NCBI RefSeq assembly: GCF_030053135.1
Contig: NZ_CP125653.1
Coordinates: 62,001 to 126,000 of the forward strand
Direction: 5' to 3'
DNA: 64,000 bases
From: Rhizobium sp. BT04
GTDB lineage: Bacteria > Pseudomonadota > Alphaproteobacteria > Rhizobiales > Rhizobiaceae
Below the pieces are notes generated by a model. It did not search any database. It had not been told where the DNA came from and saw nothing but the letters and a program-made list of their open reading frames with translations. The number at the start of each line of letters is the position of its first letter. Positions within the stretch are counted from its first letter, which is position 1. A program made the translations under genes and the position numbers. Positions 5,137-57,273 of this stretch are shown piece after piece.

Positions 5137-7233
5137 ATGGCGGCGAACGTCCGGCTTCTGGAAAACCGGTGGGATGATGCTTACGCGGCAGGCCTCGATG
5201 AGCCTGGCAAGCTGCTCTATCGCTCCAACCTGCTCGGCGCCGACAAGCGCATCACCAATTATGGCGGCGGCAACACCTCGGCGAAGGTGCTGGAAACCGA
5301 TCCGCTGACGGGCGGCAAGGTGAAGGTACTGTGGGTCAAGGGATCGGGCGGCGACGTCGGCACGATCAAGCTCGACGGTTTCGCGACGCTCTACCAGGAC
5401 AAGCTGGAATCGCTGAAAGGCATCTACAAGGGCGTTGAGGACGAAGACCGCATGGTCGGCTTCCTGCCGCACTGCACCTTCAACCTGAACGCGCGTGCCG
5501 CCTCGATCGACACGCCGCTGCATGGTTTCGTGCCTTTCACCCATGTCGACCACATGCATCCTGACGCGATCATCGCGATCGCCGCGTCGAAGAATTCGAA
5601 GGAATTGACGCAGCAGATCTTCGGTGATGAGATCGGCTGGCTGCCCTGGCGCCGTCCGGGCTTTCAGCTCGGCCTCGACCTCGGCGCTTTCGTCGCCGCA
5701 AACCCGAATGCCAAGGGCGTCGTGCTCGAAAGCCACGGCCTCTTTACCTGGGCTGATGACGCCAAGGCCTGCTACGAGCTGACGCTCGATATCATCAACA
5801 AGGCGATCGTCTGGTTTGCCGAGAAGACCGAAGGCAAGACGATTTTCGGCGGCGCGCTCACCCAGAGCCTGACCGTTGCGGAACGCCGCACCATCGCCGC
5901 CCGGCTGATGCCGGAGATCCGCGGCCGCATCGGCAAGCAAGAGCGCAAGCTCGGTCATTTCGACGATCAGGACGCCGTGCTCGAATTCGTCAATTCCAGG
6001 GATCTGCGTCCGCTCGGCGCGCTCGGCACCAGCTGCCCCGACCATTTCCTGCGCACCAAGATCCGCCCGCTGATCGTCGATTTCGATCCGGCCAAGCCGG
6101 ATGTCGACGCGATCGTCACCGGTCTCGACAATGCGCTGGAGGATTACCGCGCCGACTACGCGCGCTATTACAACGACTGCAAGCATGACAATTCGCCCGC
6201 CATGCGCGATGCCAATCCCGTCATCTTCCTCGTTCCCGGCGTCGGCATGCTGTCCTTCGCCCGCGACAAGGCGACGGCCCGCATTGCCAGCGAATTCTAT
6301 GTCAACGCCATCAACGTCATGCGCGGCGCCTCGACGGTCTCGGAATATCAGGGCCTGCCGGAGCAGGAAGCCTTCGATATCGAATACTGGCTGCTCGAAG
6401 AGGCGAAGCTCCAGCGCATGCCGAAGCCGAAGAGCCTTGCCGGTCGTGTGGCCTTCGTCACCGGCGGCGCCGGCGGCATCGGCCGGGCGACCGCCGCGCG
6501 CCTCGTCGGCGAGGGCGCCTGCGTGGTGCTTGCCGATATCGATCAGGCGGCGCTCGAAGCCACCGAGGCCGATTTCGTCAAGAAATACGGCGCTGACGCC
6601 GTGCGCAGCATTCGGCTCGACGTCACTAGGGAAGATGCGGTGATCGCCTCCTTCGCGGAAGCCTCGGTTGAATTCGGCGGCATCGATATCCTCGTCTCGA
6701 ATGCCGGCATTGCCTCTTCCGCGCCGATCGAATTGACCGAGCTTTCGACCTGGAACCGCAATATCGATATTCTGGCGACCGGCTATTTCCTCGTTTCGCG
6801 CGAAGCCTTCCGCCTGTTCCGCCGCCAGGCGCTCGGCGGCAACATCGTCTTCGTCGCCTCGAAAAACGGTCTTGCCGCCTCGCCGAACGCGTCTGCCTAC
6901 TGCACGGCCAAGGCCGCCGAGATCCATCTCGCCCGCTGCCTGGCGCTGGAAGGCGCTGATGCCGGCATCCGTGTCAACACCGTCAACCCGGATGCCGTGC
7001 TGCGCGGCTCGAAGATCTGGAGCGGCGAATGGCGCGAGCAGCGCGCCGCCTCGTCGAAGATCGAGGTTGATGATCTCGAGGAACATTACCGCAAGCGTTC
7101 GATGCTGAAACTCAACGTTTTCCCGGAAGACATCGCCGAGGCGATCTATTTCCTCGCATCGGACCTTTCGGCAAAATCGACCGGCAACATCATCAACGTC
7201 GATGCCGGCAACGTGCAGAGCTTTACGCGCTGA
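5137..7233 (+). CDS. rhaD: bifunctional rhamnulose-1-phosphate aldolase / short-chain dehydrogenase RhaD
   Basis: Fusion enzyme of 698 residues. The N-terminal part is a class II aldolase domain with candidate metal histidines in PFTHVDHMHPDA and LESHGLF. From about residue 437 a complete short-chain dehydrogenase follows, with cofactor motif TGGAGGIG, NAG and catalytic YCTAK near residue 588. In this family the aldolase cleaves L-rhamnulose-1-phosphate to glycerone phosphate and L-lactaldehyde, and the dehydrogenase half is thought to oxidise lactaldehyde. The gene starts the plus-strand rhaD-rhaI operon and is divergent from rhaR. An ORF of equal length antisense to it is a coding shadow. 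Confidence 0.93.
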   Translation: MAANVRLLENRWDDAYAAGLDEPGKLLYRSNLLGADKRITNYGGGNTSAKVLETDPLTGGKVKVLWVKGSGGDVGTIKLDGFATLYQDKLESLKGIYKGVEDEDRMVGFLPHCTFNLNARAASIDTPLHGFVPFTHVDHMHPDAIIAIAASKNSKELTQQIFGDEIGWLPWRRPGFQLGLDLGAFVAANPNAKGVVLESHGLFTWADDAKACYELTLDIINKAIVWFAEKTEGKTIFGGALTQSLTVAERRTIAARLMPEIRGRIGKQERKLGHFDDQDAVLEFVNSRDLRPLGALGTSCPDHFLRTKIRPLIVDFDPAKPDVDAIVTGLDNALEDYRADYARYYNDCKHDNSPAMRDANPVIFLVPGVGMLSFARDKATARIASEFYVNAINVMRGASTVSEYQGLPEQEAFDIEYWLLEEAKLQRMPKPKSLAGRVAFVTGGAGGIGRATAARLVGEGACVVLADIDQAALEATEADFVKKYGADAVRSIRLDVTREDAVIASFAEASVEFGGIDILVSNAGIASSAPIELTELSTWNRNIDILATGYFLVSREAFRLFRRQALGGNIVFVASKNGLAASPNASAYCTAKAAEIHLARCLALEGADAGIRVNTVNPDAVLRGSKIWSGEWREQRAASSKIEVDDLEEHYRKRSMLKLNVFPEDIAEAIYFLASDLSAKSTGNIINVDAGNVQSFTR

Positions 7234-9376: not shown

Positions 9377-10246
9377 ATGGACGAGAAAAAATGGCTGGCC
9401 GATGAATTCGAGGCGAACCGGGCGCATCTGCGGGCCGCCGCCTATCGCATGCTCGGCTCGCGCAGTGAAGCGGAGGATGCCGTTCAGGAGGCTTGGCTGC
9501 GGCTGAGCCGTGCGGATACGAGCGATGTCGGCAATCTTGGCGGCTGGTTGACGACTGTTGTGGCGCGCATCTGCCTCGACATGCTGCGTGCCCGCAAGAC
9601 CCGGCGTGAGGAGCCGCTGGAGATACCTGTCCATGGCGCGATCGCCGATCCGGCAAACGATCCGGAGCGCGACGCAGCCTTTGCCGAATCGGTCGGCGTG
9701 GCGCTGCTCGTGGTGCTGCAGACGCTGGCGCCGGCCGAGCGTGTCGCCTTCGTGCTGCACGACATGTTCGATTTGCCCTTCGACGAGATCGCTTCGATCA
9801 TCGGCAGGTCGTCCGCCGCTACAAGGCAGCTTGCAAGCCGCGCCCGTCGCCGGGTGCAGGGCGTGGACGAGGCGCCTGATGTCGATTTCGGCCGGAAGCA
9901 GACGATCGCGCAGGCTTTTCTGACGGCATCGCGCAATGGCGATATCGAGGCGCTGATTGCCGTGCTTGCCCCCGATGTCGCCTTCCGGCCGGATGCGACG
10001 GCGGCCCGATTTGGAGCGGTCGGGGAGGTTCGCGGCGCTCCGGCGGTCGCCGCGCTTTTCAAGGGCCGGGCGCAGGCGGCGGAAGCCGCCATCGTCGACG
10101 GTGAAGTCGGATTCGTCGTGCGCACCGAGGGCCAGATTCGCGTCGTCGTGGCACTGACCATCGCCGACGGCAAGATCATGGCGATCGACGCCTTTGCCGA
10201 TCCGGATTATCTCGAACGGGTGGATTATTCAGTGCTTTCCGGCTGA
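9377..10246 (+). CDS. SigJ-like ECF sigma factor with C-terminal SnoaL-like domain (ECF41-like)
   Basis: Sigma factor of 289 residues. Region 2 is near residues 10-75 (AYRMLGSRSEAEDAVQEAWLRL) and region 4 near 110-160 with a helix-turn-helix (FDEIASIIGRSSAATRQLASR). The last 110 residues form a SnoaL/NTF2-like domain that in this family acts in place of an anti-sigma factor. The ending DPDYL resembles the conserved NPDKL of ECF41. The WLPEP motif usually found between regions 2 and 4 is absent, so assignment to ECF41 proper is open. It is divergent from the AhpD-like gene, its probable target. Confidence 0.85.
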   Translation: MDEKKWLADEFEANRAHLRAAAYRMLGSRSEAEDAVQEAWLRLSRADTSDVGNLGGWLTTVVARICLDMLRARKTRREEPLEIPVHGAIADPANDPERDAAFAESVGVALLVVLQTLAPAERVAFVLHDMFDLPFDEIASIIGRSSAATRQLASRARRRVQGVDEAPDVDFGRKQTIAQAFLTASRNGDIEALIAVLAPDVAFRPDATAARFGAVGEVRGAPAVAALFKGRAQAAEAAIVDGEVGFVVRTEGQIRVVVALTIADGKIMAIDAFADPDYLERVDYSVLSG

Positions 10247-10343: not shown

Positions 10344-10403
10344 TTGACAGCGACGCTGTCACTTATATTCTATTATAAAGATTTGCATAACATAATTATG
10401 GAA
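10344..10403 (+). promoter_or_regulatory. promoter plus candidate IclR operator of the amidohydrolase gene
   Basis: TTGACA at 10344-10349, 16-base spacer, TATTCT at 10366-10371. The 37 bases at 10367-10403 match 29 of 37 positions, without gaps, to 49063-49099, where an identical promoter layout precedes a transporter operon. The AT-rich core (CATAATTATGG) is nearly palindromic. Binding by the IclR protein at 11745-12578 is inferred. Confidence 0.6.
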
Positions 10404-10513
10404 TTATTGGAATACGACACGTATTCCATCCCCTCTTCCATGATGACCAGCCAGGCGGATCGCCGCCGGGCGCGGGTCGATTCATATCCGAGACTTCGAA
10501 AGGAATGCATATC

Positions 10514-11722
10514 ATGTCCGGGGACCAGCCGAAGAAGCCGCTCCTGCTCGCCAATGTCAGACCGGTGGCTTTCGGCGCCGGCGCGCCGGCTGCGGCGGTC
10601 GACATTCTCGTCGACGGTGACGGCAGGATCGCTGAGATCGGTGCTTCGCTCGCCGTTTCCCAGGATGTGACGCGCATCGACGGCAAGGGCGCCTTCGTCT
10701 CGCCCGGCTGGATCGACCTGCATGTGCATATCTGGCACGGCGGCACCGATATTTCCATCCGCCCGTCCGAATGCGGCGTCCAGCGCGGCGTCACCACGCT
10801 GGTCGATGCCGGTTCAGCCGGCGAGGCGAATTTCCACGGTTTCCGCGAATATATCATCGAGCCCGCGCGCGAGCGCATCAAGGCCTTCCTGAACCTCGGC
10901 TCGATCGGCCTCGTCGCCTGCAACCGCGTCGCGGAACTCAGGGATATAAGAGATATCGATCTCGACCGCATCCTCGAAGTCTATGCCGAAAACAGCGAGC
11001 ACATCGTCGGCATCAAGGTGCGCGCCAGCCATGTCATCACCGGCTCCTGGGGCGTTACCCCGGTAAAGCTCGGTAAGAAGGTCGCCAAGATCCTCAAGGT
11101 GCCGATGATGGTGCATGTCGGCGAACCGCCGGCGCTTTATGATGAAGTGCTGGAGATTCTCGGCCCCGGCGACGTCGTCACCCACTGCTTCAACGGCAAG
11201 GCCGGTTCGAGCATCATGGAGGACGAGGACCTTTTCTATCTTGCCGAGCGCTGCGCCTCCGAGGGTATCCGCCTCGACATCGGCCATGGCGGCGCCTCCT
11301 TCTCCTTCAAAGTCGCCGAAGCGGCGATCGCGCGCGGGCTGCTACCGTTCTCGATTTCGACTGATCTGCACGGCCATTCGATGAACTTCCCAGTCTGGGA
11401 CCTGGCGACGACGATGTCGAAGCTGCTTTGCGTCGGCATGCCCTTCGACAAGGTGGTGGAAGCCGTCACCCATGCGCCGGCATCTGTCATCAAGCTGTCG
11501 ATGGAGAACCGGCTTGCGATCGGCGCGCAGGCCGAATTCACGATTTTCGATCTGGTCGATTCCGCGCTCGAGGCGACGGATTCGAATGGCGACGTCTCTG
11601 TTCTCAGCAAGCTGTTCGAGCCGCGCTACGCGGTGATCGGCGCCGATGCTTTCGCCGCCAGCCGCTACGTGCCGCGGGCGCGCAAGCTGGTGCGCCACAG
11701 CCATGGTTATTCCTACCGGTAG
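10514..11722 (+). CDS. amidohydrolase/deacetylase-family metallohydrolase
   Basis: Metal-dependent hydrolase of 402 residues in the amidohydrolase superfamily (EF_0837/deacetylase-like). Metal-site motifs are in order: DLHVHIW, a probable carboxylated lysine in GIKVRASH, HVGEPP, THCFNGK and the aspartate of STDLHGH. The start at 10514 has AAAGGA nine bases upstream; the ATG at 10505 is too close to it. Such enzymes are often encoded with SelA-like PLP enzymes, and here that partner is at 53316-54512 behind a matching promoter. It probably opens an N-acyl or cyclic amide; the substrate is not known. Confidence 0.82.
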   Translation: MSGDQPKKPLLLANVRPVAFGAGAPAAAVDILVDGDGRIAEIGASLAVSQDVTRIDGKGAFVSPGWIDLHVHIWHGGTDISIRPSECGVQRGVTTLVDAGSAGEANFHGFREYIIEPARERIKAFLNLGSIGLVACNRVAELRDIRDIDLDRILEVYAENSEHIVGIKVRASHVITGSWGVTPVKLGKKVAKILKVPMMVHVGEPPALYDEVLEILGPGDVVTHCFNGKAGSSIMEDEDLFYLAERCASEGIRLDIGHGGASFSFKVAEAAIARGLLPFSISTDLHGHSMNFPVWDLATTMSKLLCVGMPFDKVVEAVTHAPASVIKLSMENRLAIGAQAEFTIFDLVDSALEATDSNGDVSVLSKLFEPRYAVIGADAFAASRYVPRARKLVRHSHGYSYR

Positions 11723-11744: not shown

Positions 11745-12578
11745 TCAGCGGTTGCGCCAACCCATCAGCTTTTCGATCCGCTCCGCCGAACTGCGCACAT
11801 GCGCCGCATAGTGGTTTTCGTCGGAAAAAGCCTTCTGCTCCGGTAGCACGATGGAAATGGTGGCGACGCACTGGCCGTCGCGATCGCAGATCGGCGAGGC
11901 GATGCAGGCAACCGCATAATCCGATTCCCCCGCCTGGATCGACAGGCGCGCCTCGAAGGCCTTGCCGGCCGATTCCGAGAGGGTGCCCGGATCGATCTCG
12001 GCGCGGCCGGTCGGTGACGAGCGGGCGCAGCGCTTGAACAGTTCGATGCGTTCCGCCTCGGCCAGGTGGCCGACGAGCAGGCGGCCCGACGCCGTCCAGT
12101 TCAGCGGCACCCGGGTTCCGACGCGCGATGCCACCTGGAAGTGGCTCGGGCCGTCGGCCATGGCAAGCACCAGCATAAAATCGCCGTCGCGGCCGCAGAC
12201 CTGCACCGTCTCGCCGGCCTGGCGGCAGAGATCGTGCATTTCGTGGGTGGCGATGCTCATGAAATCCAGCGATCGGGCATAGGCGAGACCGTAATGGTAG
12301 AGCCGCGCGCCAAGCCAGATCGAGCCGTCCGCCTGGCGCGTCAGCATGTTTTTCTCGACCAGATCGTCGACGATGACATAAACGGTCGACAGCGGCGCCT
12401 TCACCGCCTTGGCGATCGCATAGACGCCGGCCGGCGATCCGGTCTCATAGAGATGATCGATCACCTGAAGCGCCCGGTCGATGCCGCTGACGCGCGCGCG
12501 GCGCGCACCCTTGCCACCGGCCTCGCCGCCAAGGCCCTCATCTTCGGAGTAAGCTGTGGGGGATGTCTTTCCGTCCAA
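11745..12578 (-). CDS. IclR-family transcriptional regulator
   Basis: Regulator of 277 residues. The N-terminal winged helix (IDRALQVIDHLYETGSP onward) contains the recognition region GVYAIAKAVKAPLSTVYV, and the C-terminal IclR effector domain includes SGRLLVGHLAE and a cysteine near DYAVACIASPI. It is convergent with the amidohydrolase gene, 22 bases apart. It is the best candidate for binding the element shared by 10367-10403 and 49063-49099. A weak related stretch (TTACATTACTATGG, 12610-12623) lies just upstream of its own start and might serve autoregulation. Confidence 0.87.
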   Translation of the reverse strand: MDGKTSPTAYSEDEGLGGEAGGKGARRARVSGIDRALQVIDHLYETGSPAGVYAIAKAVKAPLSTVYVIVDDLVEKNMLTRQADGSIWLGARLYHYGLAYARSLDFMSIATHEMHDLCRQAGETVQVCGRDGDFMLVLAMADGPSHFQVASRVGTRVPLNWTASGRLLVGHLAEAERIELFKRCARSSPTGRAEIDPGTLSESAGKAFEARLSIQAGESDYAVACIASPICDRDGQCVATISIVLPEQKAFSDENHYAAHVRSSAERIEKLMGWRNR

Positions 12579-12788
12579 TTCGACGTTCCTCGTTAAAACC
12601 GCGATTGTGTTACATTACTATGGCATAGCGGTCGCTGTGGCAAATCGCAACATTTTGTGGGTTGATCGTGAGGGCGGATGCTGCAGCGGGATCGTGTCAG
12701 AGCGTGCGACTGGTCGGCAAGAACTCCACCATAAACTTGGAACAACAAGCCATAGCCCGAGTTTGCCCCCTGAACCCAGGAGGCAATG

Positions 12789-31227: not shown

Positions 31228-31245
31228 ATTCCGTTATTACGGAAT
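31228..31245. promoter_or_regulatory. candidate operator palindrome upstream of oligosaccharide operon
   Basis: ATTCCGT-TATT-ACGGAAT, a perfect seven-base inverted repeat with a four-base centre, 18 bases before the GNAT start. It looks like a site for a dimeric repressor such as GntR or RpiR type; no regulator gene is adjacent. Confidence 0.5.
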
Positions 31246-34329: not shown

Positions 34330-36477
34330 ATGGATGGCGTCGTTTCGCAGCAGCTGGACTCCGGTCTTCGTGCGCTCTGCGGCATCGCCGCATTCTATCG
34401 GATCGCTGCGGATGCGGTTCAGCTAGAGCACGACTTGGCATTGAAGGGGCGCATGTCCCAGCCCATCGACATTCAGCGGGCAGCCAAAATCATCGGACTC
34501 AAGGCACGTGTGGTCGAGAAGGTCACGGCGCGACGCCTTCGAACCATGCCAGTCCCCGCTATCGTCCAAGTTCGCAGCGGATCCTTTCAGGTGCTCGGCG
34601 GGTTGAATCCCTCTGGAAAATACCGGCTTGTCGATCCCATAACGCGCGCTGATCGCGAGATTGCTCCGTCGGATATATTAGCCGAAATCGACGCGCGCGT
34701 TATTCTTGTGGGCCGGCGGATCAGAGGAGAAGGGTCGGACCCGCGAGAATTCGGCTTCAAGTGGTTTCTGCCGTCGATCTGGCGTTATCGAAAGCCGCTC
34801 GCGCATGTATTGCTCGCATCGCTGTTTGTGCAGATCTTTGCGCTCATCACGCCTTTGTTCTTTCAGGTCGTGGTCGACAAGGTGCTGACGCATAAGGGCT
34901 ATTCAACGCTGTTTGTGCTTGTCGCCGGCATCGCGATCGTTGGCCTGTTCGATGTCATGCTCCAGTATCTGAGAGCCTATGCGCTGGCTCACACGACGAA
35001 CCGGATCGACGTCGAGCTCGGCCAACGCTTGTTCCATCACCTGCTACGGCTGCCGTTGGAGTATTTCGAGACGCGGTCTGCCGGTCAGACCGTCGCCCGC
35101 GTCCGCGAACTGGAAACCATACGGGCATTCCTGACCGGGCAGGGACTGTTTTCGGCCCTCGATGTCGTTTTCATCTTTGTCTTCATCGCGGTTCTTTTCG
35201 CTTATTCCTGGAGCTTGACGCTGATCGTCATTGCCGCCATCCCGATCTACATCCTGATCGGAAGCGTGGTGCGACCGCCGCTGCGCGAATTCGTCAAGGA
35301 GAAGTTCAATCGCGGCGCGGCAAGCCAGCAGTTTCTGGTCGAAGCCGTCGTCGGCATCCACACGGTAAAGTCCGCCGCGGTGGAGCCGGTGATGCAGGCG
35401 CAGTGGGAGGAGAAGCTCGCAGCTTACGTGCGAACAGCCTTCGATACGACAATGCTGGGCGTCGGCGGGCAAAACGCCATTCAATATGTGAGCAAGCTTT
35501 CGACGGCTGCCCTTCTTCTTTTCGGTGCAAGGGCGGTCATCGAAGGCGAGCTTTCGGTCGGCTCACTTGTCGCCTTCAACATGATTGCCGGGCAGGTCAC
35601 CCAGCCGATCCTGAGGCTGTCCCAACTCTGGCAGGATTTCCAGCAGGTGCAGATCTCGGTCGACAGGCTCGGCGATATCCTCAACACGCCGATAGAGCGT
35701 CAGCCAAACGCGCGGTTGTCGTTGCCTGCACCAAAGGGAAAAATCGATTTTCGAAACGTCACCTTCCGGTATCGGCCCGGCTCACCGGAGGTGCTGAAAA
35801 ACATATCGCTTGAAGTAAAGCCGGGAGAGGTCATCGGCATCGTCGGCACCTCGGGCTCGGGAAAGTCGACGCTCGCGAAACTGGTGCAGCGTCTTTATAT
35901 CCCCGAAGAGGGGCAGGTCCTTCTTGACGGCATGGATCTCTCCCAGCTCGATCCCGCCTGGCTTCGAAGCCACATCGGAGTCGTTCTCCAAGAGAACCTG
36001 CTGTTCAACCGGACGATCCACGACAATATCGCCTTCTCAAACCCGGCGATGCAACGCGCCCAGGTTATTGCTGTCGCCAAGCTCGCCGGGGCGGATGAAT
36101 TCATTTTGCGATTGCCGCATGGTTACGACACGATGATCGAAGAGCGCGGCGCCAACCTGTCCGGCGGCCAGCGCCAGAGGATCGCCATTGCCCGTGCGCT
36201 TGCCACCACTCCCCCGATCCTGATTTTCGATGAAGCGACCAGCGCCCTCGACTATGAAAGCGAGCGCGTCGTGCAAACCAACATGCACCAGATCGCCGCC
36301 GGCCGCACCGTTATCATCATCGCGCATCGGCTCGCCGCCGTACGGCCTTGCAACCGCATCATCGGCATGGCGGACGGACGCATAGTGGAAATCGGCAGCC
36401 ATGATGATCTGCTCAAGCGCCCGGGCGGGCTCTATGCGCGGCTTTGGGCCTTGCAGAACGACAGAGGCGTCGCATGA
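34330..36477 (+). CDS. type I secretion ABC transporter (HlyB-like)
   Basis: Exporter ATPase of 715 residues. Residues 1-130 form a C39-like domain in which the catalytic Cys position of peptidase C39 is Ser11 (DSGLRALCG in place of ECGLACL), so it is a non-cleaving substrate-recruiting domain as in HlyB. Five to six membrane helices follow from about 155. The nucleotide domain has GTSGSGKST (near 505), LSGGQRQRIAIARAL and LIFDEATSALD. It is coupled by ATGA with the HlyD gene and lies upstream of the RTX gene, its expected substrate. Confidence 0.9.
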   Translation: MDGVVSQQLDSGLRALCGIAAFYRIAADAVQLEHDLALKGRMSQPIDIQRAAKIIGLKARVVEKVTARRLRTMPVPAIVQVRSGSFQVLGGLNPSGKYRLVDPITRADREIAPSDILAEIDARVILVGRRIRGEGSDPREFGFKWFLPSIWRYRKPLAHVLLASLFVQIFALITPLFFQVVVDKVLTHKGYSTLFVLVAGIAIVGLFDVMLQYLRAYALAHTTNRIDVELGQRLFHHLLRLPLEYFETRSAGQTVARVRELETIRAFLTGQGLFSALDVVFIFVFIAVLFAYSWSLTLIVIAAIPIYILIGSVVRPPLREFVKEKFNRGAASQQFLVEAVVGIHTVKSAAVEPVMQAQWEEKLAAYVRTAFDTTMLGVGGQNAIQYVSKLSTAALLLFGARAVIEGELSVGSLVAFNMIAGQVTQPILRLSQLWQDFQQVQISVDRLGDILNTPIERQPNARLSLPAPKGKIDFRNVTFRYRPGSPEVLKNISLEVKPGEVIGIVGTSGSGKSTLAKLVQRLYIPEEGQVLLDGMDLSQLDPAWLRSHIGVVLQENLLFNRTIHDNIAFSNPAMQRAQVIAVAKLAGADEFILRLPHGYDTMIEERGANLSGGQRQRIAIARALATTPPILIFDEATSALDYESERVVQTNMHQIAAGRTVIIIAHRLAAVRPCNRIIGMADGRIVEIGSHDDLLKRPGGLYARLWALQNDRGVA

Positions 36478-37931
36478 AAGGTAATGTCGCCAAAGCCGTT
36501 CGATATGCCGGCCTTCCCCCGCGCCCGTTGGCGCGATCCGACCACGAGTTTCTGGCGCCGGCGCTCGAAATTCTGGAGACGCCGGCCTCGCCGGTGCGTC
36601 TGGCGCTGATCCTGATCATTTGCGCCTTCGTCACGACGGCGTTGATCTGGTCTTATATCGGCCGCATCGACATCATCGCGGCCGCACAAGGCAAAATTCA
36701 GCCGACCGGCCGCGTCAAAGTTGTTCAGCCATTGTTGACAGGCAAGGTGAAGGCACTTCCGCCGCCGAATGGCGCGCCCGTCAAGAGCGGTGATATCCTG
36801 CTCGAACTCGACCCGACGGATGCCATTGCCGATGAGACGGACGCAACAAAAGGCCTGGCGTCCGTGAGATCAGAGGTCCGTCGTCGAAAAGCCGCGGTGG
36901 ACTATGTTCGGTCTCAGGAGAGCGACCAGCCGCTGCCGACGATCTCCTGGGATGCAGATGTGCCCGAGGAATTGCGTCGTCGTGAAGAAGGCATCCTGCG
37001 GGGCGATCTCGAGCAATTCCAGGCCGCGGCTGCGTCGCTCGATGCTCAGAAGTACCAGAAGGAAGTGGAGCGCGATCGTCTGGTCGTGACGGTTGCGGCT
37101 CAGAACTCGCTGGTTGAGACCCTGAAAGAGCGCGTGGCGATGCGCAGTGCGCTGGCTTCGAAGGACGCCGGCACGATGGCGAGTGTGATCGATGCCACGG
37201 AAACATTGAAAGAGCAGGCGACACAGCTTGCCGTGCAGGAGAGCCACCTCGCAGATGCCGTGGCCGGCATCGAGGTCTTCGCGCGGGAGAAGGACAAGCT
37301 GACGCGAACCTTCCTGAGCGATCAACTCGGGCGGCTCGGCGATGCGGAGCGTCGGGTCGAAGAACTGGAGCAGAGGCTGGCGAAAGCCAGGAATGTTCGC
37401 GAGCAGATGACCTTGCGCAGTCCAATAGACGGCACGGTGCAGGCGTCTTCGATTACCAGTGTGGGTCAAGTGGTGACCGTCGGCCAGGATGTGATGCGTG
37501 TCGTGCCTGAGGGGAGCGCGTTGGAGCTCGAAGTCTACGCTTTGAACAAGGACATCGGCTTCATCAAAATCGGACAGGACGCTGTCGTCAAGCTCGAAGC
37601 CTTTCCCTTCACCCGCTACGGAACGATCGCAGCCCACGTCACCAAAATTGCGGCAGATGCGATCCCTGAACCCGACGCCGCACGCCGTGAGGGCGACCCT
37701 GCGGCAAGACAGGCGGAGACAACGTTCGGCGGCGCCGAAAGAATGCAGAACCTGGTTTTTCCGGTCACATTGAGCCTCGAGACCGACCAGATTTCAGCAG
37801 ATGGCCGTAACGTCAAGTTAAGTGCGGGCATGGCAGCAATTGCGGAAGTGCGAACGGGCGAGCGCAGAATGCTGGAATATGTCTTTTCGCCTTTGGTTGA
37901 GGTCGCGGAGGAAGCACTTCATGAGCGATAG
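36474..37931 (+). CDS. type I secretion membrane fusion protein (HlyD-like)
   Basis: Adaptor of 485 residues with one membrane helix (about 43-63, LALILIICAFVTTALIW) after a cytoplasmic tail. A lipoyl half-motif and long coiled coils follow (roughly 120-320), then the conserved C-terminal HlyD barrel (VRTGERRMLEYVFSPLVEVAEEALHER, partly cited). The ATG overlaps the HlyB stop. A TolC-like outer-membrane partner is not in the window. Confidence 0.9.
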   Translation: MKGNVAKAVRYAGLPPRPLARSDHEFLAPALEILETPASPVRLALILIICAFVTTALIWSYIGRIDIIAAAQGKIQPTGRVKVVQPLLTGKVKALPPPNGAPVKSGDILLELDPTDAIADETDATKGLASVRSEVRRRKAAVDYVRSQESDQPLPTISWDADVPEELRRREEGILRGDLEQFQAAAASLDAQKYQKEVERDRLVVTVAAQNSLVETLKERVAMRSALASKDAGTMASVIDATETLKEQATQLAVQESHLADAVAGIEVFAREKDKLTRTFLSDQLGRLGDAERRVEELEQRLAKARNVREQMTLRSPIDGTVQASSITSVGQVVTVGQDVMRVVPEGSALELEVYALNKDIGFIKIGQDAVVKLEAFPFTRYGTIAAHVTKIAADAIPEPDAARREGDPAARQAETTFGGAERMQNLVFPVTLSLETDQISADGRNVKLSAGMAAIAEVRTGERRMLEYVFSPLVEVAEEALHER

Positions 37932-38050
37932 TTGCGAAGATCAAAAACTTTCTGAACATAATTGAAGCTTTTAGTTGAAGTTTCCCCTTTTGTGCAGCAG
38001 AGGGAAACGGCATTAGGCGCGGCCGAATGGAATAGGCAAACGGGGATTTT

Positions 38051-49039: not shown

Positions 49040-49099
49040 TTGACAGGATCGATCCATCTCCTATTCTGTTACAAAAAGATGAATTACATAATTGTGGAA
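49040..49099 (+). promoter_or_regulatory. promoter plus candidate IclR operator of the second transporter operon
   Basis: TTGACA at 49040-49045, 16-base spacer, TATTCT at 49062-49067. The 37 bases 49063-49099 match 29 of 37 positions to 10367-10403. The ATG of the binding protein is 18 bases beyond. Confidence 0.6.
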
Positions 49100-49117
49100 C
49101 TAAACGGGAGCCCTCAG

Positions 49118-50644
49118 ATGAAAACATTGGTCGCATTCCTTCTCGGCATTGCGTTCGTCACCCTGCCTTCGACGCTGCTTGCCCAGGAAAAGGGCGGTGT
49201 CATCAACGTCGCAACGATCGGCGAGCCGCCGACGCTCGATCCGATGTCGTCGACGGCCGATCTCGTCGGCATCGTCACCCAGCACATTTTCGAAACGCTC
49301 TACACCTTCGACAAGAGCTGGAACGTCACGCCGCTTCTGGCCGAAAGCCTGCCTGAGATCAGCGCCGACGGCAAAACCTATACGATCAAGCTCAGGACCG
49401 GCATCAAGTTCCACGACAATACCGACATGACCTCGGAAGATGTCGTCGCCTCGCTTGGCCGCTGGATGAAGATCGCTTCGCGCGGTAAGCAGGTGGCCGG
49501 TTTCATCGACAAGGTCACCGCCGTCGATCCGACGACCGTCACCATCACGCTGAAGCAGCCCTATGCGCCGCTGACCTCGCTGCTTGCCTTCAACAATTCG
49601 GCGGCGATCATCATCCCGTCCGAAAAGCAGGACGAGCCGATGAAGGAATTCATCGGCACCGGTCCCTACATGCTGAAGGAGCGCAAGGCCGACCAGTATA
49701 TCCAGCTCGTCCGCTTCGACGGCTACAAGTCGCGCGAAGGCGACAGCAACGGTTATGGCGGCGCTCGCCACCAATATCTCGATGAGATCCGCTTCGTACC
49801 GGTGCCGGATCCGAACACCCGCGTCGAGGCCGCCGTTTCCGGCCAGTATGATTATGTCGACTCGATCCCGGTCGAATCCTACGACAAGCTGAAGGCCTCC
49901 ACCGCCTCGCAGCCGATCATCCTCAAGCCCTTCGGTTATCCCGTCTTCGTCTTCAACACCGCCGATGGCATCAACAAGAATGTCGAAGTCCGCAAGGCGA
50001 TTCGCCAGGCGCTCAGCATGGAGGACATGCTGGCCGCGGCTTTCGGCAGCAAGGATTTTTACACGCTCGACGGCGCCATCTATCCGAAGACCTTTGCCTG
50101 GTCGACGGATGCTGGCGTCGAGGGCGCCTATAACGTCGCCGATCCGGAAGGGGCGGCCGCTGCCGCCAAGAAGGCCGGTTACAACGGCGAACCGATCCGG
50201 ATTCTAACCAGCCGCCAGTACGAGTTCCACTACAAGATGGCGCAGGTTGCCGCCGAATATCTGAAGCTTGCCGGCTTCACCGTCGATATGCAGGTTGTGG
50301 ACTGGGCGACGCTGACGCAGCGCCGCACCGATCCGAAGCTTTGGGATATCTACATCACTCATAGCCCCTTCCTGCCGGAGCCGGCTCTTATCGGCTCGCT
50401 CTCGACCAGTTCGCCCGGCTGGTGGGATACGCCGGCCCGCAAGGCCGCCGTCGATGCCTTCACTTCGGAAGTCGATCCGAAGAAGCGCGTGGCACTCTGG
50501 GCCGATGTCCAGAAGGCCGTTTATACCGACGCGCCCTTCATGAAGATCGGCGACTTCAACGCCGTCTCGGCAAAGTCGGTCAAGCTCGACGGCGTCGATC
50601 CGGCGCCGTGGCCGTATTTCTGGAATGCTTCGATCAAGAAGTGA
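49118..50644 (+). CDS. family 5 solute-binding protein (peptide/nickel-type ABC importer)
   Basis: Periplasmic binding protein of 508 residues, with a signal peptide ending near LLA at residue 22. The mature part opens GGVINVATIGEPPTLDPMSST (in part), typical of DppA-like proteins. ATG at 49118 has GGGAG upstream. It is the first gene of an operon with two permeases, RidA, a SelA-like enzyme and a fused ATPase. Its ligand is probably the compound degraded by those enzymes. Confidence 0.88.
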   Translation: MKTLVAFLLGIAFVTLPSTLLAQEKGGVINVATIGEPPTLDPMSSTADLVGIVTQHIFETLYTFDKSWNVTPLLAESLPEISADGKTYTIKLRTGIKFHDNTDMTSEDVVASLGRWMKIASRGKQVAGFIDKVTAVDPTTVTITLKQPYAPLTSLLAFNNSAAIIIPSEKQDEPMKEFIGTGPYMLKERKADQYIQLVRFDGYKSREGDSNGYGGARHQYLDEIRFVPVPDPNTRVEAAVSGQYDYVDSIPVESYDKLKASTASQPIILKPFGYPVFVFNTADGINKNVEVRKAIRQALSMEDMLAAAFGSKDFYTLDGAIYPKTFAWSTDAGVEGAYNVADPEGAAAAAKKAGYNGEPIRILTSRQYEFHYKMAQVAAEYLKLAGFTVDMQVVDWATLTQRRTDPKLWDIYITHSPFLPEPALIGSLSTSSPGWWDTPARKAAVDAFTSEVDPKKRVALWADVQKAVYTDAPFMKIGDFNAVSAKSVKLDGVDPAPWPYFWNASIKK

Positions 50645-50869: not shown

Positions 50870-51811
50870 ATGATACGCTACACCCTCCAGCGCCTGTTCG
50901 GCATGATCGTCGTGATGTTTCTCGTCGTCACGATCGTCTTCGTCATCGTGCGCGTGACACCGGGAGATCCAGCCGCTGTCATGCTCGGGCCGGATGCGAC
51001 GCCGCAGGATATTGCCGATCTCAGGTCCCGGCTCGGCCTCGATCAGTCGCTCGGCCTGCAATATCTCTATTATATCGGCCAGCTGCTGAAGGGCGATCTC
51101 GGCCAGTCGATCTTTCTCAACATGCCGGTCACCGCGGCGCTCATCGACCGCGCCGAGCCGACCTTCTTCCTGACGCTGTTCTCGCTGGTCATTGCCAGCA
51201 TCATCGCCCTGCCGATCGGCATCTATGCCGCCTATCGCCGCGGCTCCTTGGTCGACCAGGCGGCAACGACGCTTGCAATGTTTGCCGCCAGTATTCCAAG
51301 CTTCTGGCTCGGCCTCATCCTGATGCAGTTCTTCGCCGTCCGGCTTAACCTCTTCCCGGTCTCGGGTTATGGCGGCCCCGGCTCGACCTTCTTCGAGCGC
51401 ATGTATCATCTGACGCTGCCGGCCTTTGCGCTCGGCATCGTCTCCTCGGCGCTGATCCTGCGTTTCACCCGCGCCTCGATGCTCGATGTGCTCGGCGACG
51501 ATTATATCCGCACGGCGCGCGCCAAGGGGCTGATCGAGCGCAAGGTGATCCTCAAACATGCGCTGAAGAATGCGCTGATCCCGATCCTGACGGTGCTCGG
51601 CCTGACGGCGGCGGTGCTGATTTCGGGCGCCGTCGTCACCGAAACCGTCTTCGGCCTGCCGGGAGTCGGCAATCTCGTCGTCTCGGCGGTGCTGCGCCGC
51701 GACTACCCCGTCATCCAGGGCGCGCTGCTGGTTATCGCCGCGCTCTACGTGCTGATCAATTTTGCGATCGACATGCTTTATCTGCTGGTCGATCCGAGGG
51801 TGCGCTACTGA
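50870..51811 (+). CDS. ABC transporter permease (DppB-like)
   Basis: Permease of 313 residues with N-terminal helix (LQRLFGMIVVMFLVVTIVFV), motif VRVTPGDPAAVML and the coupling loop region TARAKGLIERKVILKHALKN. The stop codon overlaps the next start by one base (TGATG). Confidence 0.9.
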   Translation: MIRYTLQRLFGMIVVMFLVVTIVFVIVRVTPGDPAAVMLGPDATPQDIADLRSRLGLDQSLGLQYLYYIGQLLKGDLGQSIFLNMPVTAALIDRAEPTFFLTLFSLVIASIIALPIGIYAAYRRGSLVDQAATTLAMFAASIPSFWLGLILMQFFAVRLNLFPVSGYGGPGSTFFERMYHLTLPAFALGIVSSALILRFTRASMLDVLGDDYIRTARAKGLIERKVILKHALKNALIPILTVLGLTAAVLISGAVVTETVFGLPGVGNLVVSAVLRRDYPVIQGALLVIAALYVLINFAIDMLYLLVDPRVRY

Positions 51812-52680
51812 TGGCCGATATCGCGATCAAGCCAACCGAAAGCGAGGGCGGCAAATTCGTCCGCCGCCTGCTGAAGCGCAGGACGGTGGCCTTTGGCCTG
51901 TTGATCCTGACGATCTTCGTGCTGCTGGCGGTGTTTGCGCCTGTCGTCGCGCCCTATTCACCGTCGAAACTGTCCATCGTCAACCGGCTGAAGCCGCCGA
52001 GCGGCATGTTCTTCTTCGGCACGGACGAATTCGGCCGCGACGTCTTCTCGCGCACGATCTTCGCCGCGCGCCTGTCGCTGCTGGTCGGCGCTGCCGTCGT
52101 GACGCTTTCGGCGGTGATCGGCGTGACGCTCGGCCTGCTCGCCGGCTTTTTCCAGAAGCTCGACACGCCGATCGCCCGGCTGATCGATGCGATGATGGCA
52201 TTCCCGGATATTCTGCTGGCGATCGCGCTGGTCGCCGCCCTCGGTCCCTCGCTGACGACTGTCATCATCGCGCTGTCGATCGTCTATGCGCCGCGCCTTG
52301 CCCGCATCGTCCGCGCATCGACGCTGGTTATTCGTGAGCTTCCCTATGTCGAGGCGGCGAGGGCGCTCGGGATTTCGACCTTCCATATCATGACGCGGCA
52401 TGTGCTGCGCAATCTGCTGTCGCCGATCCTGGTGCAAGCGACGTTCCTCTTTGCCAGCGCCATGCTTGCCGAAGCCGGCCTGTCTTTTCTCGGCCTCGGC
52501 GTCAGCCCTGAGATCCCGACCTGGGGAACGATGATCGCCGCCGGCCGGCAATATATCGGCCAGGCCGACTGGATGACGCTGTTTCCCGGCGTCGCCATCA
52601 TTCTTTCGGTGCTGTCGCTGCAGATGGTCGGTGACGGCCTTAGGGACATGCTCGACCCAAGACTTCGCAAGGATCTTTAA
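51811..52680 (+). CDS. ABC transporter permease (DppC-like)
   Basis: Permease of 289 residues with an N-terminal helix, the DppC segment FFFGTDEFGRDVFSRTIFAAR (in part) and loop EAARALGISTFHIMTRHVLRN (in part). It forms the pore with the preceding DppB-like protein. The operon continues with RidA 67 bases on. Confidence 0.9.
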   Translation: MADIAIKPTESEGGKFVRRLLKRRTVAFGLLILTIFVLLAVFAPVVAPYSPSKLSIVNRLKPPSGMFFFGTDEFGRDVFSRTIFAARLSLLVGAAVVTLSAVIGVTLGLLAGFFQKLDTPIARLIDAMMAFPDILLAIALVAALGPSLTTVIIALSIVYAPRLARIVRASTLVIRELPYVEAARALGISTFHIMTRHVLRNLLSPILVQATFLFASAMLAEAGLSFLGLGVSPEIPTWGTMIAAGRQYIGQADWMTLFPGVAIILSVLSLQMVGDGLRDMLDPRLRKDL

Positions 52681-52747
52681 ATCCGCCGACCCCTCGGTCG
52701 GCTTAATCCAAATTCGCCAAATCGAAAATTGCATGACAGGAGTTTGC

Positions 52748-53245
52748 GTGAATCAGTTTCCCACCGCCGCCGGCAAGGCCGAGAACTCGCCTTACGAACG
52801 GCTTGCCGCCCTCGGCATAACGCTGCCGCCGCCGCCGCCGCCGATCGCCAATTTCGTGACGCATGTGCTGGAGGGCAATATGCTCTATCTCTCCGGCCAG
52901 GGACCGCGCGAGGCCGACGGCTTCCTGCATGCCGGCAAGGTTGGCGCCGACGTCGGTGTCGAGGCGGCCTATGATCATGCGCGGCTGACCGGCATCAATC
53001 TGCTCGCCGTCATGCAGGATGCGCTCGGCGATCTCTCCCGCGTCAAGCGGGTGGTCAAGCTGCTCGGCATGGTCAATGCCGTGCCCGAGTTCGAGGATCA
53101 TCCGAGCGTCATCAACGGCTGCTCGGATCTCTTGATCGAGGTCTTCGGGCCGGCTGGCGAACATGCCCGCTCGGCCGTCGGCTTCGGCTCGCTGCCCGGC
53201 AACATCACCGTCGAGATCGAGGCGATCGTCGCCTTGCACGGCTGA
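52748..53245 (+). CDS. RidA/YjgF-family protein
   Basis: Protein of 165 residues. The GTG at 52748 has AGGAG five bases upstream; an in-frame ATG at 52733 lacks one. Family features are LYLSGQGP, the arginine of [23 protein letters not shown] (in part) and a GDLS loop. RidA enzymes hydrolyse reactive enamine/imine intermediates released by PLP lyases. The next gene is such a PLP protein, so the pairing makes functional sense. Confidence 0.85.
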
Positions 53246-53315
53246 CGAGAACTTTCATATTGGGAGCAGGGTTCTATTTTATCCCGCTACTCGCCCCAGA
53301 ATTCTGGAGACCTTC

Positions 53316-54512
53316 ATGTCCACTGATATCAGACCATCAATCGGTCTTCGCCCCGTCATCAACGTATCGGGCACGATGACGGGCCTCGGCGCTTCGATCG
53401 TCGTGCCGGAGGCGATCGAGGCGATGGCGTCGATCCTGCCGCATTTCGTCGAGATCAACGACCTGCAGCGCAAGGCCAGCACCGTCATTGCCCGGCTGAC
53501 CGGCGGCGAGGCGGGTTTCGTCACCGCCTCCTGCTCGGCCGGCATTTCGCTCGCCGTTGCCGGGGCCATCACCGGCGACAATCTGCTGGCGATCGAGAAG
53601 CTGCCGGATGTCACCTCCGAGAAGAACGAAGTGCTGGTGCAGATGGGCCATGTGGTGAGCTACGGCGCACCGGTCGACCAGGCGATCCGGCTTGCCGGCG
53701 GCAAGGTCGTGCTGATCGGCCAGGCAACCTCGACGCATCGCTTCCACATGGAAAATGCCATCACCGAAAAAACCGCGGCTGCAGTCTATGTCGTTTCCCA
53801 TCATGTCGTCGACTACGGCCTGCTCAACCTGAAGGAATTTGTCGAGATCGCCCATGCCAGGGGCGTGCCGGTCATCGTCGATGCGGCCTCGGAATATGAT
53901 CTCAGGGTTTTCCTGGAGCAGGGCGCCGAAATCGCCCTTTACTCCGGCCACAAATTCCTCGGCGGCCCGACTTCGGGCATCGTGGCCGGCAAGAAGGAAC
54001 TGGTGCGCCACGCCTTCCTGCAGAATATGGGCATCGGCCGCGGCATGAAGGTCGGCAAGGAGAGCATCTTCGGGGTCATGGCGGCACTCGAAGCCTGGGA
54101 AAGCCGCGATCATGCCGGCATCCGCGAACGCGAGACCGGCTATCTCAACCTGTGGAAGCGCGCGCTCGACGGCCGCCCCGGTGTCACCGCGCTGATCGAG
54201 CCGGATCCGACCAACAATCCGCTCGATCGGCTGCGTCTGATCGTTGAGCCCGAGCAGGCGCATATCACCGCCTGGGATCTGGCCGATGCGCTGGCGAGGG
54301 GCAACCCGCCGATCATCGTGCGCGATCACGAGGTGGAGCACCGCTATTTCTATCTCGACCCGTGCAACCTGCACCCCGGTCAGGAGACGATCGTCGCCGA
54401 ACGTCTGGCGGAAGAACTCGACAAGGCGCGTGCCTCCAACGAGATCATCGCAACGCCCATCGAGAACCGTAGCCGGCACCGTTTCGATGGTATGCTGCGC
54501 TGGCCGGATTGA
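53316..54512 (+). CDS. SelA-like PLP-dependent enzyme (DgaE/aminotransferase class V fold)
   Basis: Fold-type I PLP enzyme of 398 residues in the SelA/D-glucosaminate-6-phosphate ammonia-lyase group. The Schiff-base lysine is probably Lys213 in [13 protein letters not shown], and [10 protein letters not shown] supplies the PLP-ring aspartate. It opens with [14 protein letters not shown], the family N-terminus. It cannot be a true selenocysteine synthase: no selB, selD or selenium genes are visible. In the operon with RidA and a transporter it likely deaminates an amino-acid- or amino-sugar-like substrate. Confidence 0.82.
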
Positions 54513-54529
54513 GCCGAAGAGGAGCGGAT

Positions 54530-56362
54530 ATGGCCAGGGTCCAAGCGCAACCGATCGAGTCGGCAGACGTTCTTTCCGTCGACGGACTGACGACGTCCTT
54601 TCTGGTGGACGGCGTCTGGAAACCTGTTGTGCGCGACGTCTCCTTCACCGTCGCACCTGGTGAAACGGTGGCGATCGTCGGCGAATCCGGCTCGGGCAAG
54701 AGCGTCACCTCGCTCTCGATCATGCGGCTGCTGCAGGCGGATACCAGCCGTGTAGAGGGCCGCGTCATGCTCGGCGGGCGCGACCTGCTGGCCTTGCCGG
54801 AACATGCCATGCGGCAGGTGCGCGGCAACGAGGTGGCGATGATCTTCCAGGAGCCGATGACATCGCTCAATCCGCTCTTCACCATCGGCGACCAGATTTC
54901 CGAGGCGCTGCTCTGCCATTCCGATATGAGCAAGGCGGACGCCAAAGCCGAGACGATAAGACTTCTGGAAAAGGTCCGCATCCCGTCGGCCGCCTCGCGC
55001 TTCGGCGAATATCCGCATCGTTTTTCCGGCGGCATGCGCCAGCGGGTGATGATCGCCATGGCGCTCGCCAGCCGGCCGAAACTGTTGATCGCCGACGAGC
55101 CGACGACGGCGCTCGACGTGACCATCCAGGGCCAGATCCTCGATCTCATCAAGATGCTGCAGGAGGAGGAGGGAACCTCGGTTCTGTTCATCACCCATGA
55201 TATGGGCGTCGTCGCCGAGATCGCCGACCGGACGGTGGTGATGTATCGCGGCGAACAGGTCGAAAGCGGCGCCACCGCCGATATCTTCCACCGCGGCAGA
55301 CATCCCTACACGAGGGCGCTGCTCTCGGCCGTGCCGGTGCTCGGCTCGATGCAAGGCCGGCAAAGGCCGCTGCGCTTTCCGGTGGTCAATACGGCAACCG
55401 GGGAATCCGACGTGCCCGCCGAGGCGGCCGATACGGTGGCGGCGACGCCGGTGTTGCAGGTGAAGAATCTCACCAAGCGCTTCGACATTCATACCGGCCT
55501 GTTCGGCCGGCTGACCAGCCGGGTGCATGCGGTCGAAAACGTCTCTTTCGATCTGCATGCCGGCGAGACGCTGTCGCTCGTCGGAGAATCCGGCTGCGGC
55601 AAATCGACGACGGGGCGTGCCATCATGCGCCTCATCGAGCCACAGGCCGGTTCCGTTCTAGTCGAGGGCAGGGAGGTGCTCGGCCTCGACAGGAAGGATT
55701 TGCGCGAGATGCGCAAATCCGTGCAGATGATCTTCCAGGACCCCTTTGCCAGCCTCAATCCGCGCATGACGGTGGGGGCGGCAATCGCCGAGCCCTATCT
55801 CGAACACAGGATGGGCAATGCGAGAGAGGCAAAAGAGGTGGTCGCCGACCTCTTGGTAAAGGTCGGCCTGTCCCCGGATATGGCCGCGCGTTATCCGCAT
55901 GAATTTTCCGGCGGTCAGCGCCAGCGTATCTGCATCGCCCGGGCGCTCGCCTTGCAGCCGAAGGTCATCTTCGCCGATGAAAGCGTCTCGGCGCTCGACG
56001 TTTCGATTAAGGCGCAGGTCATCAACCTGATGCTCGATCTGCAACAGAGCCTCAATCTCGCCTTCCTGTTCATCTCGCACGACATGGCGGTCGTCGAGCG
56101 CGTCAGCCACCGTGTGGCGGTGATGTATCTCGGCGAGATCGTCGAGATCGGCCCGCGCGCCGCCGTCTTCGAAAATCCGCAGCATGCCTATACGAAGAAA
56201 CTTATCGCGGCCGTGCCAGTGCCTGATCCCGATCGTCGCCATGAAAAGCGTATGGTGGCGAATGACGAGATCAAGAGCCCGATGCGCCCGGTCGATTATC
56301 GGCCTCCGGCCACCTTCTATCGCGAAGTCGGGCCGGGTCATCTGGTGATGGCCGATCGGTAG
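54530..56362 (+). CDS. ABC transporter ATPase, DppD-DppF fusion
   Basis: Fused ATPase of 610 residues with two full ABC domains. Walker A motifs are GESGSGKS (about 51-58) and GESGCGKST (about 350); signatures are FSGGMRQRVMIA and FSGGQRQRICIA. Both domains keep the Walker B aspartate and glutamate. The fusion replaces the separate DppD/DppF pair seen in the operon at 24.4-26 kb. AGGAG precedes the start. It completes the importer begun at 49118. Confidence 0.9.
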   Translation: MARVQAQPIESADVLSVDGLTTSFLVDGVWKPVVRDVSFTVAPGETVAIVGESGSGKSVTSLSIMRLLQADTSRVEGRVMLGGRDLLALPEHAMRQVRGNEVAMIFQEPMTSLNPLFTIGDQISEALLCHSDMSKADAKAETIRLLEKVRIPSAASRFGEYPHRFSGGMRQRVMIAMALASRPKLLIADEPTTALDVTIQGQILDLIKMLQEEEGTSVLFITHDMGVVAEIADRTVVMYRGEQVESGATADIFHRGRHPYTRALLSAVPVLGSMQGRQRPLRFPVVNTATGESDVPAEAADTVAATPVLQVKNLTKRFDIHTGLFGRLTSRVHAVENVSFDLHAGETLSLVGESGCGKSTTGRAIMRLIEPQAGSVLVEGREVLGLDRKDLREMRKSVQMIFQDPFASLNPRMTVGAAIAEPYLEHRMGNAREAKEVVADLLVKVGLSPDMAARYPHEFSGGQRQRICIARALALQPKVIFADESVSALDVSIKAQVINLMLDLQQSLNLAFLFISHDMAVVERVSHRVAVMYLGEIVEIGPRAAVFENPQHAYTKKLIAAVPVPDPDRRHEKRMVANDEIKSPMRPVDYRPPATFYREVGPGHLVMADR

Positions 56363-56451: not shown

Positions 56452-57273
56452 ATGAACAAGACAGATTATTTTTCGAAGCTCGGCGGTTTGCCGCCGCAGA
56501 CCCAGCTGCTTTCCGGCAAGGCCGTTTTCACCACGGCTTACGCGGTCATCCCGCGCGGCGTCATGACCGATATCGTCAGCAGCGTTCTTCCGCATTGGGC
56601 GGGAACGCGCGCATGGGTGCTCTCCCGGCCGCTCTCCGGTTTCTCCGAGACCTTCTCGCAATATGTGATGGAGGTTCAGCCGGGCGGCGGAAGCGACCGG
56701 CCGGAGCCCGACAAGCGGGCCGAGGCGGTGCTCTTCGTCGTCGAAGGCGGCATGACGGTGGAGCTCGACGGCGTCAGCCACGCACTGCGCGCCGGTTCCT
56801 TCGTCTATATTCCGGCGGGTTCGGCCTGGCGCCTCAAAAACGATGGTTCGGCCGCGGCGATCTTCCATTGGATCCGCAAGGCCTTTCAGGAGGTCGAGGG
56901 GCTGGAGCCGCCGCCGGCGATCGTCACGCATGAGGACGATCATCCGATCCGGCCCATGCCCGACACCGACGGCCGCTGGGGCACGACCCGCTTCATCGAT
57001 CCGGCCGACGTGCGCTACGACATGCACGTCAATATCGTCACCCTCGAGCCGGGCGCCGTGATCCCCTTCATGGAGACCCATGTCATGGAGCATGGTCTCT
57101 ATGTGCTGGAAGGCAAGGCGGTCTATCGTCTGAACCAGGATTGGGTCGAGGTCGAGGCCGGCGATTTCATGTGGCTGCGTTCCTTTTGCCCGCAGGCCTG
57201 TTATGCGGGCGGCCCCGGCCGGTTCCGCTACCTGCTCTACAAGGACGTCAACCGCCACATGACGCTTTGGTAG
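56452..57273 (+). CDS. bicupin, (S)-ureidoglycine aminohydrolase-like (AllE)
   Basis: Double cupin protein of 273 residues. The C-terminal barrel carries the manganese-binding set in PFMETHVMEHGLYVLEGKAVY (Glu, His, His) and the glutamine of FCPQACYAGG, as in AllE/UGlyAH. In purine breakdown that enzyme converts (S)-ureidoglycine to (S)-ureidoglycolate with release of ammonia. No other allantoin genes are here, so the role may be in the neighbouring transporter pathway. It starts 89 bases after the ATPase. Confidence 0.83.
   Translation: MNKTDYFSKLGGLPPQTQLLSGKAVFTTAYAVIPRGVMTDIVSSVLPHWAGTRAWVLSRPLSGFSETFSQYVMEVQPGGGSDRPEPDKRAEAVLFVVEGGMTVELDGVSHALRAGSFVYIPAGSAWRLKNDGSAAAIFHWIRKAFQEVEGLEPPPAIVTHEDDHPIRPMPDTDGRWGTTRFIDPADVRYDMHVNIVTLEPGAVIPFMETHVMEHGLYVLEGKAVYRLNQDWVEVEAGDFMWLRSFCPQACYAGGPGRFRYLLYKDVNRHMTLW

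Follow-up and report, generated by a model that had tools for sequence, protein, structure and literature searches.

The stretch of DNA analysed here (the window) comprises 64,000 nucleotides of Rhizobium sp. BT04, positions 62,001 to 126,000 of contig NZ_CP125653.1. It carries two loci, 38 kb apart, that share a promoter pattern and a predicted operator. Locus A holds an amidohydrolase gene and a gene for an IclR-family regulator; locus B holds genes for a peptide-type ABC transporter, a RidA-family protein and a SelA-like PLP enzyme. The features, in window coordinates, are:

9377..10246, forward strand: SigJ-like ECF sigma factor (Pfam/NCBIfam); left flank of the presumed old cluster site, outside the regulon
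10344..10371, forward strand: promoter A, TTGACA-N16-TATTCT (pattern search of window and genome)
10366..10406, forward strand: predicted operator A, 41 bases, with half site TTCTATTAT on the -10 hexamer and dyad core ATAACATAATTATGGAAT at 10387-10404
10505..11722, forward strand: amidohydrolase/deacetylase-family metallohydrolase, PRK09237 family (NF006689, 454 bits, cut-off 371)
11745..12578, reverse strand: IclR-family regulator that probably represses the regulon (PF09339 and PF01614 both above cut-off; helix-turn-helix conserved across the states described below)
12609..12626, reverse strand: predicted operator of the IclR gene itself, ATGCCATAGTAATGTAAC, a single dyad with an 18-bp core
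49040..49067, forward strand: promoter B, TTGACA-N16-TATTCT (pattern search of window and genome)
49062..49102, forward strand: predicted operator B, 41 bases, with dyad core ATTACATAATTGTGGAAC at 49083-49100
49118..50644, forward strand: extracellular solute-binding protein, family 5, peptide type (PF00496, 247 bits)
50870..51811, forward strand: ABC permease, DppB type (profile search)
51811..52680, forward strand: ABC permease, DppC type (profile search)
52631..53245, forward strand: RidA/YjgF-family protein (open reading frame limits; a relative is annotated as 513 bases long)
53163..54512, forward strand: SelA/DgaE-like PLP enzyme (open reading frame limits; a relative is annotated as 1197 bases long)
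54509..56362, forward strand: fused ABC transporter ATP-binding protein, GsiA-like (profile search)
56452..57273, forward strand: two-cupin protein (relatives annotated as (S)-ureidoglycine aminohydrolase)

This gene content matches that given in an initial annotation of the window, which placed an amidohydrolase at one site and a transporter, RidA and a SelA-like enzyme at the other. The IclR gene that it reported beside the first locus is confirmed by domain matches at 11745-12578 (PF09339, 27.0 bits with a cut-off of 22; PF01614, 85.7 bits with a cut-off of 24), the gene facing the amidohydrolase. The IclR protein falls under no named NCBIfam equivalog, the best being BhcR at 91.5 bits against a cut-off of 350, and its helix-turn-helix motif, APLST(V/I)YVI(V/I)DDLVEK, is kept in all 14 IclR proteins of the genus that were aligned. 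The nearest solved structure to the amidohydrolase is PDB 2ogj, Agrobacterium Atu3266, an enzyme that hydrolyses acetyl esters. The likeness is nearly full length (E 2.4e-231) and a shared substrate is putative; the protein scores below the cut-off of the EF_0837 equivalog TIGR03583 (295.7 against 432.15). The PLP enzyme is akin to DgaE (D-glucosaminate-6-phosphate ammonia lyase, structure 7lc0, E 1.7e-74), yet lies below the cut-offs of the DgaE families (TIGR01437, 322.6 against 385.3; NF047797, 300.5 against 600). Membership of the two-cupin gene in the operon is doubtful: two further genes intervene before it in the laboratory symbiont Rhizobium johnstonii 3841, where the IclR orthologue is RL_RS31885, and it was not found in 23 stretches from genomes of the genus with an unsplit or IclR-apart cluster (defined below), some of these stretches stopping directly after the ATP-binding gene. 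Upstream of locus B, positions 34330-48178 encode an ABC exporter with a C39-like domain, an HlyD-type protein and a 3375-residue open reading frame that is perhaps a secreted giant protein. These genes separate the thiamine genes from locus B; the two adjoin in R. phaseoli.

Both promoters read TTGACA, exactly 16 bases, TATTCT, as originally described (10344-10349 and 10366-10371 at A; 49040-49045 and 49062-49067 at B), and the spacers do differ, agreeing at 6 of 16 bases. The further claim of 29 identities in an ungapped stretch of 37 bases holds only for 10367-10403, where five of the bases belong to the -10 hexamer; strictly behind TATTCT, identity is 24 of 32 as far as 10403 and 26 of 37 over the next 37 bases. 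Within the window, site B is the best partner of the 37-mer at site A, and in 60 simulated windows with the same dinucleotide frequencies the best match to that 37-mer reached 19-23 identities. TTGACA-N16-TATTCT occurs at two places in the genome of 6,989,060 bases (backward control, 0), and the AT-rich 41-base block, with up to three mismatches allowed, is found in the whole genome only at sites A and B. Chance similarity between A and B is ruled out by the 29 identities against 19-23 in simulation and by this two-place rarity. Between operator A and the amidohydrolase gene lies an imperfect palindrome, TGGAATACGACACGTATTCCA (10408-10428), which may be a second operator or a leader hairpin. 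Inspection by eye shows its GGAA..TTCC symmetry again in some sister genomes.

Whilst sites A and B both stand, the count of two sites missed a third: another copy of the core stands before the IclR gene. There it overlaps a -10-like hexamer, TATGCC, of a promoter that was recognised by eye and has TTGCGA 17 bases upstream. A common core, ATDMCATARTWRTGKAAY, was built from the three window sites. With zero mismatches it occurs at only three places in the genome, before the amidohydrolase, transporter and IclR genes. At up to two mismatches there are 10 forward matches against 7 for the backward control, and therefore only the best core matches are meaningful.

To place the two loci in context, we examined 151 genomes of the family. 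The amidohydrolase was matched at E 1e-114 or better in 23, and for 20 of them a stretch of about 20 kb round the match was analysed (the window's own, G020 and G037 being left out). At 18 of the 20 loci, the amidohydrolase and IclR genes lie in or beside one cluster with genes for the binding protein, permeases, ATP-binding protein, RidA and SelA-like enzyme; of the remaining two, L037 comes from the genus of the window and is split, and L056 is without an IclR match. Upstream regions were scored against the 41-base block (maximum 41). Before the binding-protein gene of the 18 loci, the block scores 30-35 in nine and 24-29 in nine, and is thus degenerate in distant genera (9 of 18 loci below 30 of 41). 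All but one of these upstream regions (17 of 18) nevertheless beat every one of 100 simulated regions; the score of the exception, L046, was reached by 3 of 100.

Within the genus, the amidohydrolase was found in 109 of 148 genomes and the IclR gene in the same 109; SelA-like matches occur in 111, the two extra ones at 63 percent identity only. Three states, assigned by gene distance, can be distinguished among the 109. In the unsplit state (45 genomes) there is one cluster, with the IclR gene between those for RidA and the SelA-like enzyme. In the IclR-apart state (14 genomes) the amidohydrolase and SelA-like genes are together and the IclR gene lies 140-254 kb off where it is on the same contig (8 of 14). 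In the split state (50 genomes, including the window) the amidohydrolase and IclR genes are together and the SelA-like gene is elsewhere: 46 of the 50 have it on the same contig at a distance of 19-905 kb, and the other 4 on a different contig. In one split genome (G204), the amidohydrolase match covers residues 95-405 only and contains a stop, and this remnant at the old site may be decaying.

A genus-wide core pattern, ATDNCATARYWRTGKAAY, widened after relatives had been seen, was searched for in the 148 genomes with no mismatch allowed. It is present in 104, comprising 102 of the 109 genomes with the IclR gene and 2 of the 39 without it; backward controls gave two matches in total across the 148 genomes. 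The corresponding Fisher p of 2.4e-25 is overstated, since these are related genomes, some of which had served to tune the pattern. Among the 150 matches listed, 62 lie at the IclR promoter, 60 at the transporter promoter and 25 at the amidohydrolase promoter (split state), 147 in all. Three are unassigned: two are in genomes without the IclR gene, and the third (G240) sits on a different contig and precedes a start codon whose peptide, judged by eye, is like the binding protein. Seven genomes have the IclR gene and no exact core (G169, G172, G192, G200, G249, G250 and G273); in G172, G192, G200 and G249 the transporter dyad is present with one change. The IclR promoter carries the core in all three states at the loci compared in the genus. 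An element scattered before unrelated genes, the alternative that the initial annotation had named, was looked for and not found, either in the genome-wide scan or among the genus-wide matches listed. The distribution of predicted sites suggests an autoregulated local regulon with few targets and an operator-like site on the regulator's own promoter.

A perfect palindrome, ATTCCGTAATAACGGAAT, two mismatches from the regulon core, lies elsewhere in the window (31228-31245), before a minus-strand operon (31210-24387) with genes for a GNAT protein, a GH3 glycosidase and a family-5 peptide transporter. It stands behind a TTGACA box, 22 bases before TATAAC. R. hidalgonense, R. phaseoli and R. bangladeshense have a like palindrome at this promoter, and the pattern was not found in the other three records examined, strain 3841 included. 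L132 and L133, both unsplit, carry these same 18 bases at the operator of the binding-protein gene.

The promoters of both halves are well conserved. When a base is taken as matched if it is the same as in either window copy, all 32 amidohydrolase promoters examined (from 31 of the 50 split genomes and one named plasmid record) score at least 32 of 41, and all 22 transporter promoters examined (21 genomes and one named record) at least 38 of 41. Operator A of the window's clade has a mean identity of 0.76 to the operators of unsplit genomes and of 0.69 to operator B. The differing spacers had been read as evidence that the pair is not a simple duplication. This was half right: promoters A and B do look homologous, since both resemble the binding-protein promoter of unsplit clusters, but they probably derive from different copies of it.

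Further clues to the history of locus A come from its neighbours. Only 7 of the 45 unsplit genomes have the whole cluster at this old site, directly behind the sigma-factor gene (six by coordinates; in the seventh, G249, the sigma gene is shortened). We scanned eight unsplit loci with all open reading frames of the window, and in four (L127, L175, L178 and L179) the cluster sits between both of the flanks that enclose the amidohydrolase and IclR genes in the window, namely rhamnose, carboxymuconolactone decarboxylase-like and sigma-factor genes on one side and TetR-like and DUF1810 genes on the other. L174 shows the first flank, its stretch being cut on the other side, and L128, L129 and L130 show neither. 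All 14 IclR-apart genomes have the IclR gene on the far side of the sigma factor, and in each of the eight scanned it is followed by the genes that stand to the right of it in the window. Depending on the genome, the same flanks therefore enclose the whole cluster, the IclR gene alone, or the amidohydrolase plus the IclR gene. A remnant of the operator between the sigma-factor and IclR genes was sought in all 14 IclR-apart stretches and not found, the best scores of 19-24 of 41 being at the simulated level.

The interval between the sigma-factor and IclR genes measures 5.4-5.9 kb in seven of the 14 IclR-apart genomes (L167-L173). In R. hidalgonense (L007) the IclR and SDR genes are separated by a VapC/prevent-host-death toxin-antitoxin pair (6443-7113), as they are in other relatives; L007 retains the IclR operator.

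Trees were built from 10 of the 50 split, 10 of the 14 IclR-apart and 10 or 13 of the 45 unsplit genomes. In the rpoB tree the split and IclR-apart clades are sisters (100/99), and so they are in the IclR tree (97/93). For the block of transporter and SelA-like genes, however, sister clades are rejected (AU p 0.0001 with five genes; 0.000367 with six genes and outgroups). Four of the six genes were tested singly: the ATP-binding (0.005), permease 1 (0.027) and binding-protein (0.048) genes reject sister B blocks; the SelA-like gene alone does not (0.123). For the amidohydrolase, the grouping of split and IclR-apart genomes has a p of 0.417 in a tree that contains a long-branch intruder. The rpoB tree also places a group of genomes around G172, whose clusters are at the old site, next to the split and IclR-apart clades (92/95). 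The IclR tree rejects that position (p 0.00026), and because of this conflict inheritance of the IclR gene is not cleanly vertical. With the flanks shared by some unsplit loci, the rpoB position of the G172 group makes it the best reading that locus A is what remains of a cluster at the old site, promoter A lying where the binding-protein promoter stood. Since the ancestry of the transporter block differs from that of rpoB and the IclR gene, the block of the split clade is likely to be a second copy of different origin, probably gained horizontally, the two copies having lost complementary genes.

We put at about 85% the probability of the overall reading in which an autoregulated IclR repressor governs both halves of a regulon that was split from one cluster by way of a second copy and complementary loss. 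The proposal in the initial annotation of a split regulon under the neighbouring IclR gene is accordingly supported, by the clustering of the genes in the family (18 of 20), by the core on the IclR promoter, by the co-occurrence of core and IclR gene and by the near confinement of the cores listed to three promoters. An ancestral import-and-breakdown operon would thus exist in two pieces 38 kb apart, probably still switched together, because both pieces and the repressor gene keep the predicted docking site.

How this might work can be proposed from the layout of the sites. We infer that the IclR protein binds a TTCCATAAT/ATTATGGAA-type dyad and represses rather than activates. At its own gene the predicted dyad overlaps the -10 of the promoter, and at the amidohydrolase and transporter promoters an extra half site lies on the -10, some 20 bp upstream of the dyad, a layout that would be suited to two IclR dimers. 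The positions of half site and dyad at A and B, and of the dyad on the -10-like hexamer before the IclR gene, agree with a repressor that stands in the way of RNA polymerase. Without inducer, the repressor would shut all three promoters; a ligand of the pathway, either imported or made, would free them, and the transporter, RidA, the SelA-like PLP enzyme and the amidohydrolase would be expressed together across 38 kb.

As to the split itself, a single ancestral cluster would have stood at the amidohydrolase site, which lost the transporter, RidA and SelA-like genes and retained the promoter, the amidohydrolase and the IclR gene, whilst a second copy elsewhere would have retained the complementary genes and its own promoter. 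More tentatively, and here we would not quite go as far as an even chance, the horizontally acquired second copy was captured by the resident repressor, as both operon copies carried the operator, and complementary gene loss then left two half operons, neither complete alone. The sister clades would have ended the redundancy in different ways: one has its amidohydrolase at the old site and the other in the new block, and in both the repressor gene stayed at the old site.

The most serious competitor is a duplication within the genome of the ancestor that the split and IclR-apart clades have in common, with complementary loss and both copies inherited vertically. This would account for the complementary gene sets at two sites, in the same order and with both promoters retained, and it agrees with the rpoB (100/99) and IclR (97/93) trees, in which the two clades are sisters. 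It is at odds with the transporter and SelA-like blocks, which are not sisters (AU p 0.0001 and 0.0004), unless the two clades kept different old paralogues, and we consider it rather unlikely. Plain relocation, in which the transporter, RidA and SelA-like genes left piecemeal and a matching promoter evolved anew, is favoured only indirectly, by the difference between the two spacers; it needs three gene groups to land in the same order behind an operator-bearing promoter when that operator already precedes the same gene in unsplit clusters, and is for this reason very improbable.

Other explanations concern what the element does. The shared element might be bound by another regulator, with the IclR protein a passenger, and the palindrome ATTCCGTAATAACGGAAT in front of another peptide-transporter operon in the window means that a related factor may exist, or that the same factor may do more. 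Yet each of the three states has the core at the promoter of the IclR gene itself, the core tracks the presence of this IclR gene (102 of 109 against 2 of 39), and in scans with window genes as queries IclR was the sole regulator matched in the clusters; binding by another regulator is accordingly improbable. It is barely credible that something unconnected with a regulator, such as promoter curvature or an RNA leader element, maintains the 41-base block: the block is AT-rich and overlaps the likely transcription start, but its dyad symmetry, its third copy on the IclR promoter and its near confinement to IclR-bearing genomes argue otherwise.

For the proposed IclR regulon, the protein families suggest, by analogy, a pathway in which a peptide-like or acylated amino compound would be imported, its acyl group removed and ammonia eliminated, with RidA possibly clearing a reactive intermediate. 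By linking importer, amidohydrolase and PLP enzyme, the regulon offers a route to their common substrate, and an operator model is ready from the three genome sites. Our literature search, thin on subscription journals, recognised nothing on this regulon, and an IclR regulon linking a peptide-type importer, a deacetylase-like amidohydrolase and a PLP enzyme is apparently undescribed. With unsplit, half-way and split states within one genus, the system is a natural experiment on operon breakage with surviving control, made useful by the remnants between the same flanking genes and by the intermediate states.

Four IclR-family regulators of solved structure, 1mkm, BlcR (3mq0), AllR (1tf1) and TtgV (2xrn/2xro), are sequence relatives of the protein encoded here (E 1e-19 to 7e-5) and have local catabolic or efflux roles, with operators over promoters; our protein differs from them in being distant by sequence and without a named equivalog. 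Operon splitting is already known. Horizontal transfer of a single gene within a conserved operon is reported for alphaproteobacterial repABC (PMC2783167). According to Price et al. 2008 (PMC2395238), local or 'neighbor' regulators control one or two operons and move horizontally with them. The present regulon resembles the local regulators described there in having its regulator beside a target, an operator on the regulator's own promoter, two target units and frequent horizontal movement, but differs from them in that the larger target lies 38 kb off and the regulator has stayed with the smaller remnant.
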